Made by a program: the position numbers and the translations under genes. 64,000 nucleotides of DNA from Methylobacter sp. (GTDB taxonomy: Bacteria; Pseudomonadota; Gammaproteobacteria; Methylococcales; Methylomonadaceae). Below are positions 818 to 11,132 of the stretch, piece after piece. The stretch covers positions 1-64,000 of the forward strand of contig JAUXXQ010000210.1 in assembly GCA_030684815.1 (NCBI GenBank), written 5' to 3'. The notes beneath the pieces are model-generated. The model was not told where the DNA came from, did not search any database, and was given only the letters and a program-made list of their open reading frames with translations. Position 1 is the first letter of the stretch. The number at the start of each line of letters is the position of its first letter.

Positions 818-2035
818 ATGCTGACCGATATTCAACTACGAAGAATCAAGCCAACCGATAAACCACAAAAGCTCAGCGATGGCGGAGGATTGTTTTTGTT
901 GGTCACCGTACAAGGCGGGAAACTATGGCGGTTAGCTTATCGGTTTGCCGGTAAACAAAAGACCTTGTCCATCGGTGAGTACCCCATCGTGTCCCTTACT
1001 GATGCGCGGGCAAAACGAGAAGAAGCTAAAAGACAGTTGGTCAATGGCATAGACCCATCAGCGGCCAAACAAGCGGCTAAGGTGGCAATGCACGGCGTAG
1101 CGGCCAATTGCTTTGAAGTGATAGCCCGTGAGTGGCACCTTACCCACATGACCAGTAAAAGCGAAAAACACGCAAAGAAGACGCTAACCGCGCTGGAAAA
1201 GGATGTTTTCGCTTGGCTGGGTAAGTTGCCGATAACCAAGATTGAAGCCCCCGACATTCTCGCCGTCTTGCGGCGGATTGAGCAGCGTGGAGCCAATGAC
1301 CTTGCGCACAATACCAAGAGCATCATAGGGCAGGTCTTCCGCTTTGCAATTGCCACGGGTCGCGCCGTTAGAAATCCGGTGCCCGATCTGCAGGGCGCAT
1401 TAACGCCGGTCAAGGTAAAACATCATGCCGCTATCACCGACCCAGGGCAGATAGGCGCATTACTAAGAGCCTGCGAAAGTTACACCGGACATTTTGCTAC
1501 ACGGTGCGCCTTGCACTTGTCGTTTTTGGTTATGCTGAGACCCGGTGAAGTCAGAAAAGCGGAGTGGTCAGACATAGACCTTGACCGGGCAGAATGGCGA
1601 ATCCCGGCGGCTAAAATGAAAATGAAAGATGAACACATTATTCCGCTTTCACGGCAAGCTATCGCCATCTTTAACGAGATAAAGCCCTTAACCGGGGCGG
1701 GACATTATGTATTCCCGTCTGTCCGCAGTCATGCCCGGCCAATGTCCGAAAATACCATTAACGGCGCATTGCGGCGCTTGGGTTATACCGGCGACGAGAT
1801 GACCGCCCACGGTTTTAGAGGCATGGCATCAACGCGGCTCAATGAGGCGCACCTATTCCACCCTGACGCAATCGAAAGGCAGCTTGCCCACGGTGAACAA
1901 AACAGCGTCAGAGCCGCTTACAACCGCGCTCAATACTTGCCGGAGCGGATAAAGATGATGCAATGGTGGGCTGATTACCTGGATAGCCTGAAAGCTGGCG
2001 GCGTTGTTGTGCCGTTTCAGATTAAATCGGCATAG
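818..2035 (+). CDS. Tyrosine-type site-specific integrase (P4 integrase family)
   Basis: A 405-residue recombinase that would integrate and excise the element at the tRNA-Leu 3' end. The N-terminal 85 residues form a DUF4102-type arm-binding domain (KLSDGGGLFL), followed by a core-binding domain and the catalytic domain. Catalytic residues are visible: R241 (MLRPGE), H331 and R334 (HGFRG), H358 (QLAHGE) and the nucleophile Y368 (AAYNR). The length is normal for the family and no lesion is seen, so the enzyme may be active even though attR has decayed. It lies immediately inside attL and is read away from the tRNA. Confidence 0.95.
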   Translation: MLTDIQLRRIKPTDKPQKLSDGGGLFLLVTVQGGKLWRLAYRFAGKQKTLSIGEYPIVSLTDARAKREEAKRQLVNGIDPSAAKQAAKVAMHGVAANCFEVIAREWHLTHMTSKSEKHAKKTLTALEKDVFAWLGKLPITKIEAPDILAVLRRIEQRGANDLAHNTKSIIGQVFRFAIATGRAVRNPVPDLQGALTPVKVKHHAAITDPGQIGALLRACESYTGHFATRCALHLSFLVMLRPGEVRKAEWSDIDLDRAEWRIPAAKMKMKDEHIIPLSRQAIAIFNEIKPLTGAGHYVFPSVRSHARPMSENTINGALRRLGYTGDEMTAHGFRGMASTRLNEAHLFHPDAIERQLAHGEQNSVRAAYNRAQYLPERIKMMQWWADYLDSLKAGGVVVPFQIKSA

Positions 2036-3430: not shown

Positions 3431-3490
3431 AAACCGCACCTAGCCCGACGGGGCGAACATGGGCAACCTTTCACCCATTGGCGCGGTTTT
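3431..3490 (+). repeat. 59-bp structured repeat, copy 2 (after higBA)
   Basis: The second copy of the 2692-2750 repeat. The outer stem AAACCGC (3431-3437)/GCGGTTT (3483-3489) is perfect and is followed by a T-rich stretch. Inside are GCCC-gacg-GGGC and ATGGG-caacctttca-CCCAT hairpins. It may act as a terminator for higBA. Confidence 0.72.
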
Positions 3491-3523
3491 CTTTTTGAAA
3501 GGCCGATCATTGAAAGGATGATT

Positions 3524-4406: not shown

Positions 4407-4646
4407 ATGGCTACACAAACCCCAACAACCGACCCCCAAACCCCAACAATTGACCACTTAAAACCAGGGTGCTATTTGCGCGTGGCAGTCTTAGCCGCTT
4501 GCCTTGGCATGTCAAAAAATTCCATATGGCGGTTGGCTAGAGACCCAAAAAACAACTTTCCACGCCCCATAAAATTGAGCGAAAAAATTACTGTCTGGTC
4601 TACAGATTCAATATTGCAATGGCTGGCAAGCAAGGCGGCCGCGTAA
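4407..4646 (+). CDS. AlpA-family excisionase/transcription regulator
   Basis: A 79-residue protein with the short MerR-like winged helix of the AlpA family (PF05930): YLRVAVLAACLGMSKNSIWRLARD, then FPRPIKLSEKITVWSTDSILQWLASK. AlpA proteins activate excision and replication genes in P4-like elements. A very strong ribosome-binding site (taaggagg) precedes the ATG. The stop overlaps the next start (TAATG), so it heads a compact operon. Confidence 0.88.
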   Translation: MATQTPTTDPQTPTIDHLKPGCYLRVAVLAACLGMSKNSIWRLARDPKNNFPRPIKLSEKITVWSTDSILQWLASKAAA

Positions 4647-5380: not shown

Positions 5381-5698
5381 ATGATAATTATAACAGCATT
5401 GACAGCCCGCGAGCGCGGCTTTATGATTGCCCCGCTTTCGCAAAATGTGAAAGACTGGATTCGCACTCCGGCAAAAACAGGCCACAACAGGCCACTATCA
5501 AACGTGGTTTTTTTGTGCCCACCAAAAACACAGGCGGCCTTGTGCCGTGTGTACTCTGTTATGGCGGGATGTATTGAGCAACCCCTCAAAAGGTTGGCCG
5601 GTTCCTGTACCGGTAGTGCGAACTTGATACATTCCGCCACCCAGCGACTCGCACCAATGGGCGGCGGTTATCCCCTCTATACAGGAGCCACCGCATGA
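5381..5698 (+). CDS. Ash-like small protein of P4-type elements (tentative)
   Basis: A 105-residue frame whose C-terminal part (MAGCIEQPLKRLAGSCTGSANLIHSATQRLAPMGGGYP) follows the loose G..G.P.GS.TGS.N pattern I associate with the phage Ash/Icd-like family (PF10554) found upstream of P4-type primase genes. Its stop overlaps the next gene's start (ATGA). No good ribosome-binding site is seen for the ATG at 5381 or 5423. Frames of this sort can also reflect a conserved regulatory RNA in the same place. Both readings are uncertain. Confidence 0.45.
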   Translation: MIIITALTARERGFMIAPLSQNVKDWIRTPAKTGHNRPLSNVVFLCPPKTQAALCRVYSVMAGCIEQPLKRLAGSCTGSANLIHSATQRLAPMGGGYPLYTGATA

Positions 5699-5922
5699 AC
5701 ACGTCACAAAACCATTCAGCTCAAACCGAGCAAACCACCCCAACCCTAAACGATTTAACCCTGGCCTTTGCCAAAGTCTGCTTTGACTATGGCGCTATCA
5801 TCGAAGCCGGTACACTGGATAAAGGTATCACCAACCGCCTGCAATGGCTGATTAGCGACTTAGACAAGCTGTCATTGGCCGCTAAAGACCTTTACAGTGA
5901 TGTTGAAGGCGGTGCGTTATGA
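5695..5922 (+). CDS. Small hypothetical protein
   Basis: A 75-residue acidic, helical protein with no family I recognise (LTLAFAKVCFDYGAIIEAGTLDKGITNRLQWLISDLDKL). A ribosome-binding site (caggag) lies 7 bp before the ATG. It overlaps both neighbours by 4 bp (ATGA) and so belongs to one polycistron with the vapE gene. Confidence 0.72.
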   Translation: MNTSQNHSAQTEQTTPTLNDLTLAFAKVCFDYGAIIEAGTLDKGITNRLQWLISDLDKLSLAAKDLYSDVEGGAL

Positions 5923-6119
5923 ACGTAGATACCATCATCCGAGACATCGACCGGGAGGACAAAATCCACGAACTGCAGCGCTGTTTATCGGTTGTGGTCG
6001 ATTTGATGGAACCCGCCACCGATCTACACGCGGTTAACCGCGCCGATCTGGCGCTATTGCTGGGCTATTTGTCCGGGAAACTAGGCGAGGCAATGCAGGA
6101 GGGCACGAAATGGATTTAA
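5919..6119 (+). CDS. Small hypothetical protein
   Basis: A 66-residue helical protein with no recognised domain (DREDKIHELQRCLSVVVDLMEPATDLHAVNRADLALLLGYLSGKL). It is translationally coupled to its neighbours: its start overlaps the upstream stop by 4 bp, and its end overlaps the vapE-like start by 10 bp. A partner or regulator role for the NTPase is possible from position alone. Confidence 0.7.
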   Translation: MNVDTIIRDIDREDKIHELQRCLSVVVDLMEPATDLHAVNRADLALLLGYLSGKLGEAMQEGTKWI

Positions 6120-7339
6120 GCAAACCGCTTGCCCGTGAATCATTCCCGCACACGTCAGAGAAAGGGCGAATTAAGGCCACTATTGCCAACCTTGCGCACC
6201 TGTTCAAATCCTACGGTATTACTTGCCAATACGATGAAATGCTGAAGAAGCAAACCATTGCAACCGCCAACGCCGAAGACGATAACGACCTAAGCGGCAA
6301 TGCAATATTAGCGGAAATACAAAGCGCTTTAGCATTGAATGATATGCCGGTTTCTTGCCTGAACTTAATCCCGTCACTGATGAAACGGAATATTGTTAAT
6401 CCGGTGCTGGCATTCATTCAATCCGAACCGTGGGATGGAAAAGACCGCCTACCTACGTTTTATGAGTCACTGCAAGTGGAGGCGAAAGACGAGGGCTACC
6501 GGGATTTAGCGGTTAGGACGTGGCTTTTGCAATGCGTAGCCGCCGCCGACAGCGCAAAAAGTACGCCGATCAAACACGCCACGGCCAAATTTGAATTGGT
6601 GTTGGTGCTGCAAGGCGGACAGGGCGCATTAAAGACAACGTGGTTTAGGTCACTTTTGCCCAAAGACATGAGCGCCTATATCGTTGACGGCGCACACCTT
6701 GACCCCGCCGACAAGGACACGGTGAAACGCTGTATTAGTTGCTGGATATGCGAATTAGGCGAACTTGATGCAACCTTTAGACGCGCCGACGTTGCCCGGT
6801 TAAAGGCGTTTTTGTCCAGTGAGCGGGATAATATCCGCCTGCCCTACGACCGCGCCGATTCGTCATTTATGCGGAGAACATCGTTCGGCGCTTCCGTAAA
6901 CCCAAAGACTTTTCTTGTGGACGACACCGGCGCCAGGCGTTTTTTGCCGCTGGCCATTAGCAAATGCCGACCGATCAGCCATGATATTCAACAAATTTGG
7001 GCGCAAGTCTGGCACTTGTACATAAACGGTTCACAGTGGTGGTCAAGTCCAGAGCTTGAGCGATTGCTTATAGATATTCACGCCGAACATGCCGAAGATA
7101 GCCCTGTTATCGAAATGATTAGCGAGGCCTTTAATGTGTCCGAGCCGGTGAAACGCGATTTTTTACGGTTTGAGCATCTTACGGCCATTCAAATTATCAG
7201 AGAATCAGGCATAGACAGCCCGAATAAAACGCAACTGCAGCAAGCCCGCGCATTTTTGGAAGCCAAAGGATTTAAGAACGTCCAATCAACCAGCAACAAA
7301 CGGGGGTATTGGATAACCAAAGAAATAGACGGCCTATAA
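6110..7339 (+). CDS. VapE-family P-loop NTPase (replication helicase-like)
   Basis: A 409-residue VapE-type protein, the presumed replication NTPase/helicase of the element. The Walker A motif is GGQGALKT (169-176) and the Walker B-like strand is WICELGELD (212-220). The following RRADVARLKAFLSSERDNIRLPYDRA...RRTSF block and the NPKTFLVDDTGARRFLP block (264-280) are typical of the family. There is no N-terminal primase domain; that role may fall to the toprim protein encoded at 8098. It overlaps the upstream gene by 10 bp. A repeat array suited to an origin follows directly. Confidence 0.9.
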   Translation: MDLSKPLARESFPHTSEKGRIKATIANLAHLFKSYGITCQYDEMLKKQTIATANAEDDNDLSGNAILAEIQSALALNDMPVSCLNLIPSLMKRNIVNPVLAFIQSEPWDGKDRLPTFYESLQVEAKDEGYRDLAVRTWLLQCVAAADSAKSTPIKHATAKFELVLVLQGGQGALKTTWFRSLLPKDMSAYIVDGAHLDPADKDTVKRCISCWICELGELDATFRRADVARLKAFLSSERDNIRLPYDRADSSFMRRTSFGASVNPKTFLVDDTGARRFLPLAISKCRPISHDIQQIWAQVWHLYINGSQWWSSPELERLLIDIHAEHAEDSPVIEMISEAFNVSEPVKRDFLRFEHLTAIQIIRESGIDSPNKTQLQQARAFLEAKGFKNVQSTSNKRGYWITKEIDGL

Positions 7340-7428: not shown

Positions 7429-7620
7429 TGTGGGTAGTGTGGGTTTTTAGTAATGGCGCGGCCTATAGAGATTTTGTAGTGTGGGTTAGCTGTGGGTTTT
7501 CATGTGGGTCTGTGGGTTTTTGATGTGGGTAATGTGGGTGCTGTGGGTCGTTTTTTAGCTTAATGTGGGTCGTTTCTGCCTTTTAACTCAATTACTTATA
7601 TAAAACCCACACGACCCACA
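7429..7620. other. Candidate replication origin: TGTGGGT iteron array
   Basis: Ten direct copies of TGTGGGT start at 7429, 7438, 7480, 7491, 7503, 7511, 7524, 7533, 7542 and 7564. Two inverted copies (ACCCACA) start at 7605 and 7614. An AT-rich stretch (7571-7604) separates the two groups. The array lies between the vapE-type NTPase and the ssb-like and toprim genes, in a 390-bp gap without genes. Repeats of this kind beside replication genes are typical of iteron origins. Origin function is inferred. Confidence 0.7.
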
Positions 7621-7648: not shown

Positions 7649-7675
7649 AAAAGCCTACCGGGGAAAAGAAGAGGT
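7649..7675. repeat. 27-bp inverted repeat, left arm
   Basis: This arm is the exact reverse complement of 8055-8081. Together the arms enclose the ssb-like gene, which starts 53 bp downstream. See the right arm. Confidence 0.95.
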
Positions 7676-7728
7676 AAAAAGCGTTTCACCACCGGGCAGC
7701 ATAAGCCCCCAACAACAGGTAAAAAATT

Positions 7729-8055
7729 ATGATTGAAGCACTTGTAAGCGGAAAAATGATAAAGGATGCAGAGCTTAAGACCGGAGCCAAGTCTACCTAC
7801 TGCAATTTCTTGGTATCGGTCGATATAAACGAACCGGATAGGGCGGTAGTATCGTGCATTGCCTTTAATGAAGCGGCGGAACGCATAGCCAAACTAAAAA
7901 AAGGCGATGCCGTCACCGTTATTGGCGCGTTAAAGCCGAGCCAGTGGACGGACAAGGCCACCGGCCAAACAAAACACGGCCTCAACGTAACAGTGTCATC
8001 GTGCCTCAGCGTGTACGACCTTAAGCAGCGCAAAGCATCAGGCAGCCATGAATAA
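7729..8055 (+). CDS. Single-stranded DNA-binding protein-like (OB fold)
   Basis: A 108-residue protein that reads as a minimal OB fold without the acidic C-terminal tail of bacterial SSB. It begins MIEALVSGKMIKDAEL, has YCNFLVSVDI and VVSCIAFNEAAERIAKLKKGDAVTVIGALKPS (the strand-helix-strand order of SSB proteins), and ends NVTVSSCLSV. It probably coats single strands during replication of the element. The whole gene is enclosed by a perfect 27-bp inverted repeat whose right arm starts at the last base of the stop codon. That repeat may control its expression. Confidence 0.85.
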   Translation: MIEALVSGKMIKDAELKTGAKSTYCNFLVSVDINEPDRAVVSCIAFNEAAERIAKLKKGDAVTVIGALKPSQWTDKATGQTKHGLNVTVSSCLSVYDLKQRKASGSHE

Positions 8056-8081
8056 CCTCTTCTTTTCCCCGGTAGGCTTTT
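8055..8081. repeat. 27-bp inverted repeat, right arm
   Basis: A perfect inverted copy of 7649-7675. It begins on the last base of the ssb-like stop codon and ends 16 bp before the start of the toprim gene, whose ribosome-binding site (aggaag) lies just after it. The 14-mer AGGCTTTTAACAGG at its outer edge (8074-8087) recurs at 10898 and 11116. Confidence 0.95.
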
Positions 8082-8097
8082 AACAGGAAGCTTAACA

Positions 8098-8943
8098 ATG
8101 GATATTGAAAATTTAAGAGTGTTGGACTTGGCTGCGGTCTGTTCGTTGCTGAACTTGGAACGGGACGAAAAAGACCCGAAGCAATTTAAAACCGATGGCT
8201 TTAGGATTAGCGTTACAGGGCTAAAGTGGTTCGATCATAGCGCCGGGAAAGGGGGCGGCGGAGCAATTGATCTGGTCATGCACGTTAAGCATTTGTCGTT
8301 TATGGCTGCAGCCAATTATTTGAGCAGTGCAGGCGGCGAACTGCCCACGGCATCGACGAAGGCCGCCACCGCAAAAACCACTGCAGCAGCAACCAAGCCG
8401 CCCACACCCAATAAAAACAACCTGCCAAGGATATTGGCCTACCTCACCGAGCAACGCGGGTTAAATGCCGCATTGGTGCAATGGTGCGTGGACAAAGGCC
8501 TGATTTATGCCGATTGCCGCAATAATTGCGTTTTCAGATACGGGCACCAGGGCGCGGAATTGCGTGGCACCGGCGCGGTTCAATGGCGCTCTGTGTACGG
8601 CACGATTGAACACGGCTTTATTTTGCCAGCGCGTTTACCTGTTGGCGTTGCCGTGCTTGAATCGGCCATAGACGCGCTGAGTTACCGGCAGATTCACCGG
8701 GACATGATAACGCTATCCATTGCCGGGAACGGAAACCATAAAATCATCCAGCAAGCCGTCAACATAGCCAAGGCAAACAAATTGCCGGTGTTCAGTGCGT
8801 TTGACAGCGACAGCGGCGGTAATGTTGCCGACAAGATTCTGTGCGGTTATGCGGCGAGCGATGGCGTAACCGTTATGCAAGACAGACCCCGCCGCAAGGA
8901 CTGGAACGAGCAATTAAGAATAATGCCGAAAGACATTATCTAG
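8098..8943 (+). CDS. Toprim-domain primase-like protein
   Basis: A 281-residue protein with an N-terminal DUF3991-like region (FRISVTGLKWFDHSAGKGGGGAIDLVMH, 35-62) of the kind placed before toprim domains in mobile-element primases. A linker rich in Ala, Thr and Pro (83-108) follows, then a toprim fold: E188 in VAVLESAIDAL and D236/D238 in FSAFDSDSGG. No zinc-binding motif is seen. With the VapE-like NTPase and the ssb-like protein it would make up a compact replication module. It may prime at the iteron array upstream. Confidence 0.87.
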   Translation: MDIENLRVLDLAAVCSLLNLERDEKDPKQFKTDGFRISVTGLKWFDHSAGKGGGGAIDLVMHVKHLSFMAAANYLSSAGGELPTASTKAATAKTTAAATKPPTPNKNNLPRILAYLTEQRGLNAALVQWCVDKGLIYADCRNNCVFRYGHQGAELRGTGAVQWRSVYGTIEHGFILPARLPVGVAVLESAIDALSYRQIHRDMITLSIAGNGNHKIIQQAVNIAKANKLPVFSAFDSDSGGNVADKILCGYAASDGVTVMQDRPRRKDWNEQLRIMPKDII

Positions 8944-10791: not shown

Positions 10792-10913
10792 TTAGAGATG
10801 CCCGAAAAAGCCGCCGAAACGGGCGGCTTTTTTTTGCCTTGAATTTTGGAACCTGTTAAATCTTCTCTCTAAGCCACTGTGCAAATAATTTCACAGCAGG
10901 CTTTTAACAGGCA
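10792..10913 (+). repeat. 122-bp direct repeat, copy 1, with terminator
   Basis: It contains a terminator hairpin (AGCCGCC-gaaacg-GGCGGCT then eight T). It then carries a larger palindrome whose ends are cctgttaaa and tttaacagg around ataatttcacagcaggc. Copy 2 starts at 11010, a period of 218 bp, with roughly 90% identity by eye. Confidence 0.85.
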
Positions 10914-11009
10914 ACTTGAATGATGTAACACCAATCAAGTTACCTGAACCCGCACCGGCAAGCCCGACCTTTCGCAGCCGATCTAATCCAGCCCCTATCA
11001 TACGAAGCT

Positions 11010-11132
11010 TTAGAGATGCCCGAAAAAGCCGCCGAAACGAGCGGCTTTTTTTTGCCTTGAATTTGTGCGCCTGTTAAATCTTCTTTCTAGTCCACCGTGT
11101 AAATAATTTCACAGCAGGCTTTTAACAGGCAA
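11010..11132 (+). repeat. 122-bp direct repeat, copy 2, with terminator
   Basis: The second copy of 10792-10913, with the same terminator (one stem base changed) and the same AGGCTTTTAACAGG motif (11116-11129). The motif is also found beside the ssb-like gene at 8074. Confidence 0.85.

Follow-up and report, generated by a model that had tools for sequence, protein, structure and literature searches.

A small ssb-like gene in a Methylobacter genome is enclosed by the two arms of a long inverted repeat, one arm before the gene and the other between it and a primase gene. This raises the question of how the arms act: as ends of a mobile DNA unit, as halves of an RNA stem, as operators or as signals for DNA replication. 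We approached it from the window (the whole 64,000-nt stretch of DNA that was analysed), the genome around it and related elements.

The arms lie in the replication module of a satellite island

The region is a P4/PICI-like satellite, integrated beside tRNA-Leu. Its replication module runs in the order VapE helicase, iterons, left arm, ssb, right arm and DUF3991-Toprim (DnaG-like) primase. The features are as follows.

818..2035, + strand: tyrosine integrase gene, adjoining tRNA-Leu (524-610)
3433..3502, + strand: int-alpA RNA, with a second int-alpA RNA at 2694-2764
4407..4646, + strand: AlpA regulator gene
5557..5644, + strand: C4 antisense RNA (P4/P1-type immunity RNA; RF01695, 60.4 bits)
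6110..7339, + strand: VapE-like helicase gene (PF05272, E 8.4e-47)
7429..7620, no strand: iterons, 10 direct copies of TGTGGGT and 2 inverted; probable origin
7649..7675, + strand: left arm, motif CCTACCGGGGAAAA within the 27-nt inverted repeat, 5' of ssb and about 29 nt past the iteron block
7729..8055, + strand: ssb-like gene, 108 aa (Pfam SSB PF00436, E 1.8e-9)
8055..8081, − strand: right arm, the 27 nt of the left arm read on the bottom strand, in the gap from the ssb stop codon to the start of toprim
8098..8943, + strand: DUF3991-Toprim, DnaG-like primase gene, 281 aa (PF13155, PF13154; phrog_510 DNA primase, E 2.8e-5; weak match to the dnaG model, E 0.019)

The tRNA-linked tyrosine integrase, AlpA, the C4 antisense RNA and a replication block with iterons make the island similar to the P4, PICI and PICMI satellites. 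However, unlike the fused primase-helicase of the P4 alpha type, the VapE helicase and the DUF3991-Toprim primase are encoded by separate genes with ssb between them. No psu, sid or delta was found among the island proteins scanned (a subset of the ORFs), and the literature on P4-like satellites that we searched contained no description of paired arms. A Mor-like gene lies in the island on the strand opposite to ssb and toprim. The two int-alpA RNAs lie either side of toxin/antitoxin-like genes. The loop of the C4 antisense RNA, TTCCTGTA, is complementary to the ribosome-binding site TACAGGAG of the next gene (5660-5700); in the closest related island, described below, both loop and target are changed (TTCCTTTG / CAAAGGAA), a covariation seen by eye.

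The arms are a perfect, unique and old pair

The left arm (7649-7675) reads AAAAGCCTACCGGGGAAAAGAAGAGGT and is complementary to the right arm (8055-8081) at 27 of 27 positions across 379 nt, exactly as the earlier note had described. The ssb ORF (7729-8055) ends with TAA at 8053-8055; hence the right arm begins on the last base (A) of the stop codon, a further detail that holds. In 64 kb of DNA, a perfect pair of this length (27 bp) lying within 1 kb should not arise by chance; simple counting gives about 4e-9. When up to 3 mismatches are allowed, a 20-nt part of the arm matches the window at the two arms only and gives no pair in 100 shuffles, and for the full 27-mer the two arms are the sole places in the whole 4.29-Mb genome. 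No target duplication is seen at the arm flanks in the window.

The same pair occurs in a diverged relative. The closest island (G175:C257, L050), whose VapE, SSB and Toprim proteins are 63, 60 and 54% identical to those of the window, carries a left arm (AAAAGCCTACTGGGGAAAGAAAG) and a right arm (AAAAGCCTGCTGGGGTAAGAGAAAG, given as reverse complement) at the corresponding positions. The two ends of its contig share an overlap of 141 bp; it is therefore probably an assembled circle of about 9.5 kb and probably represents the excised or episomal form of the satellite. Single arms are kept in two more genomes: the left one (AAAGCCTACTAGGGAAAGAAAGAG) in G258:C68, next to a truncated ssb, and the right one (AAAACCTACTAGGGAAAGAAAGAG) in G089:C130, a contig that starts 104 nt before ssb. 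Thus the arms are old and their position is conserved, and the recent origin that the earlier note had allowed for does not hold. Judging by these sequences, the arms are neither a recent insertion nor a duplication unique to the window genome.

Two explanations of the pair as a product of DNA rearrangement lose their ground here. The arms might be the terminal inverted repeats of a small mobile cassette carrying ssb, as the earlier note had suggested, and both their perfect geometry, typical of terminal repeats, and a related inverted pair around a different small gene in another element (G162, see below) are in its favour. But the genome holds no other copy, target duplications are absent, and the arms go with Toprim, other ssb genes having none. 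This explanation, which we find scarcely credible, is largely refuted by the conserved position in G175. Alternatively, the left arm might be a recent, functionless inverted copy of the right arm, made by recombination or a template switch, as the identity of 27/27 within the window exceeds that between elements. G175 has both arms, diverged yet alike, and G258 keeps its left arm alone, which makes this origin very improbable.

The sites are exactly two in the window genome (G000) and in G175, inverted and confined to the element; these are the only two satellites with both arms. In three satellites with different iteron units, the left arm lies 27-35 nt past the array. The arrays share one layout with the units TGTGGGT, TGGATG and TGGAGGT in the window (7429-7620), L171 (4467-4636) and L050. 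The unit differences among the three related satellites, which include those of G258 and G175, represent a concerted change of the origin repeats.

In most related ssb loci (54-66% identity) the gene has other neighbours; such arms are lacking there, and downstream no Toprim was found. The earlier note had named, as grounds for giving up its proposal, homologous islands that have the gene but no arms, together with absence of the arms from all other loci. The outcome is mixed: ssb homologues without arms are many, yet arms recur in other Toprim-carrying elements. No vapE-toprim island missing only the ssb unit was seen.

We also note several observations on the related genomes. In G089:C130 (L048) a TnpB-type insertion, recognised by eye, breaks the satellite soon after the start of the toprim gene. 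A CRISPR spacer in G089:C57 (L128, 1420-1460) holds CCTACTAGGGAAA, 14 nt of which match the arm of the G258 satellite, a match too short to prove targeting. The sequence AAAACCTACTGCGGAAAAG, repeated in many relatives, was rejected as a candidate: it is a shared repeat, always flanked by CTAGGAGCCTGTCCGAGAATAG, and looks like one end of an unrelated insertion sequence.

The motif accompanies the primase gene in other elements

The sites of the different elements have in common the motif (C/G)CTACYR(C/G)GGAAA followed by an A-rich tail. In G162:C162, a MobV-Toprim element or plasmid, another small gene stands between inverted copies of the motif (CCTACTACGGAAAGAAAAAATGTCGA / CCAACTACGGAAAAGAAAAATGTCGA). 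The motif also occurs, as GCTACTACGGAAA or in a closely similar form, in conjugative or related plasmids from Xanthomonas, Pseudomonas and Serratia whose DUF3991-Toprim is about 30% identical; there it precedes the DUF3991-Toprim gene by about 30 nt, on the strand of the right arm. Both G162 and the plasmid loci were retrieved solely for their Toprim gene. In the Pseudomonas and Serratia plasmids an inverted 21-23-nt copy of the motif lies 1.2-20 kb from the copy at the primase gene. The cores differ by one base, GGG in the satellites versus CGG in the plasmids.

With at most 1 mismatch, six DUF3991-Toprim plasmids hold 7, 7, 5, 3, 3 and 2 sites against 0.27-0.50 in shuffles (for the top three, 7 vs 0.50, 7 vs 0.37 and 5 vs 0.43), a comparison that is not fully blind, since the wider motif pattern was refined after the first plasmid sites were known. 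Ten other plasmids, weaker matches to the same protein query, have no site in nine cases and one site in the tenth. Cleaner support comes from a motif-free test, which took the sequence preceding the Toprim gene and looked for its best inverted partner. The sites found in this way were again those of the motif, with matches of 27/27 in the window, 23/23 in pKF715D (8.6 kb away), 23/23 in pMRVIM0812 and pBYT5-5, 22/23 in pDCPR1 and 20/21 in pPENP1. Ranked by such a partner among all genes of three plasmids, the Toprim upstream region came 2nd, 3rd and 2nd, behind unrelated inverted repeats.

The plasmid sites are not one single pair: there are up to 7 in each plasmid, some of them inside genes. 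The motif is weak or absent beside the Toprim genes of G236, G159 and cyanobacterial and Gram-positive plasmids. Loci with ssb or vapE and without Toprim have no site at the expected place, just scattered matches with 1 mismatch, and low-level matches elsewhere are background. Scans of IMG/VR for the paired or the single motif and blastn against phage and plasmid collections gave no matches. Wider searches for Toprim and DUF3991 in class and phylum samples added few further elements, and our literature search found neither a paper joining DUF3991 with Toprim nor a description of the motif.

The distribution bears on the possibility that the arms are operators for a regulator encoded by the element, such as an AlpA-like protein, a plasmid regulator or a self-repressing primase, acting before ssb and toprim. 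The sites do lie just upstream of these two genes, and several plasmid sites are in divergent intergenic regions (before toprim, between mobC and SprT, and beside trfB). However, the motif is not palindromic, several other plasmid sites fall within coding sequence, the right arm is inside a gene cluster, and the primase family is the only candidate regulator that was seen in all of the satellites, the MobV plasmid and the conjugative plasmids. We therefore consider operators unlikely.

A motif that is present on both strands, beside iterons and confined to the element, and that recurs in elements with nothing but the primase family in common, looks like a replication signal. The confinement in G000 and G175 points to a reader encoded by the element itself. 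Since similar pairs accompany the same type of primase in other satellites and plasmids, the arms probably mark where the primase starts DNA synthesis.

The arms can also pair in the transcript

The earlier note had offered a transcript stem as the second possibility, one that hides the ribosome-binding site of the next gene or blocks RNases. Such a stem would join the left arm, upstream of ssb in the leader of the ssb-toprim mRNA, to the right arm, which is in the leader of toprim, and would thereby hide the ribosome-binding region of toprim or protect the message. The stem is present in the minimum free energy (MFE) fold of the window transcript (z -4.4), and 0 of 100 shuffles are as stable. 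The arms pair in the MFE fold of G175 too, where the arm regions reach -36 kcal/mol against -31.4 for the best of 200 shuffles. The compensatory evidence comes from two satellites only: between G000 and G175 there is one pair changed on both sides, from C-G to U-A, and the G175 stem has one A-C mismatch and one bulge. In both G089 and G175 the right arm contains an AGG a short way upstream of the toprim ATG, but in G000 a good AGGAAG sits outside the stem.

A stem explains the 27-bp perfection better than initiation sites do. The identity in G000 is longer than the recognisable motif, as base-pairing would predict, and the right arm lies within a 5' leader, where translation control is also plausible; both points count against primase sites. 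On the other side, the sequence itself, beyond its pairing, is conserved across elements that enclose different genes, and the plasmid copies are kilobases apart (6-20 kb), in different transcripts. What stands of the earlier proposal is the strong fold, found in G175 as well, whereas motif pairs kilobases apart with the same primase family favour a DNA signal.

In full, this proposal is a long-range RNA switch, in which a ribosome finishing ssb would open the base of the stem and thus couple primase synthesis to SSB synthesis. In the RNA phage MS2, long-range pairing between coat and replicase couples their translation. The present arrangement is similar in that distal complementary segments surround one gene and the second lies near the start of the next. 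Unlike in MS2, the sequence itself (from which the pairing is here predicted) is conserved, and it turns up also where the two copies could not pair within a single transcript. We consider the RNA stem and switch, taken together, unlikely. A DNA signal kept in two inverted copies pairs in RNA too; therefore both a DNA signal and an RNA stem could be present together. The C4 antisense RNA was considered as a partner of the arms and rejected: the complementarity, judged by eye, is 5-7 nt only, and C4 matches the ribosome-binding site of its next gene instead.

Proposed primase recognition sites, one per strand

Returning to a replication signal, the closest known arrangement is that of the IncQ plasmid RSF1010, with ssiA and ssiB as single-strand initiation sites, one on each strand, which are read by the plasmid's own primase (PMC4434180). 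Together with the distribution of the motif and the DnaG-like signatures of the Toprim protein, this is why initiation sites of a primase are favoured. We suggest, as a possibility that falls somewhat short of an even chance, that the arms are element-specific primase recognition or single-strand initiation sites, one per strand, analogous to this pair.

Step 1: An initiator, probably VapE, would open the DNA at the iterons adjoining the left arm.

Step 2: SSB would coat the strands thus exposed.

Step 3: The DUF3991-Toprim primase would recognise CCTACYRSGGAAA in single-stranded form. The protein matches a phage DNA primase family (phrog_510, E 2.8e-5) and has DnaG-like signatures, weak in the window (dnaG model, E 0.019) and clearer in the G162 protein (1.6e-4), so that it may be the primase cognate to the motif.

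Step 4: One primer would be laid on each strand, and synthesis would leave the ssb region in both directions. We propose that the need to fit one and the same cognate primase keeps the two copies of an element alike.

As in RSF1010, each strand has one site, the two sites face opposite ways close to iterons, the element encodes its own primase, and the pair is confined to the element. The RSF1010 sites are 40 nt with a hairpin, whereas the satellite arms have no conserved hairpin. No hairpin is consistent across 25 sites; since the ssiA-type hairpin is not conserved, the arms are not classed as members of the ssi family, only as working alike. The primases also differ, RepB' of RSF1010 being of the archaeo-eukaryotic type (AEP) and the satellite primase of the DnaG/Toprim type, and the spacing of the sites, unlike that in RSF1010, ranges from 0.4 kb in the satellite to many kb in the plasmids. 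A single-sequence structure prediction of the Toprim protein (pLDDT 39) was left out of the argument.

With a little more reserve, we suggest that DUF3991-Toprim primases of phage satellites and of conjugative or mobilizable plasmids may recognise a long initiation motif of their own, the (C/G)CTACYR(C/G)GGAAA with its A-rich tail, set in inverted pairs of which one copy directly precedes the primase gene. These sites would then form an undescribed family of single-strand initiation sites that the two kinds of mobile element share. DnaG-type primases are usually held to start at trinucleotides. If the suggestion is true, a recognition motif of a dozen bases in inverted pairs would indicate how small satellites and plasmids prime without the host DnaG, it would serve as a sequence handle for locating origins in unannotated elements, and one replication signal would tie phage satellites to conjugative plasmids.

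Elsewhere in the window, a hairpin-forming repeat that includes CAGCAGGCTTTTAACAGG occurs twice, in direct orientation, within 10840-11130. This repeat has 14 exact nt in common with the right arm plus the sequence just downstream of it (AGGCTTTTAACAGG), and a further near copy lies on contig C215.
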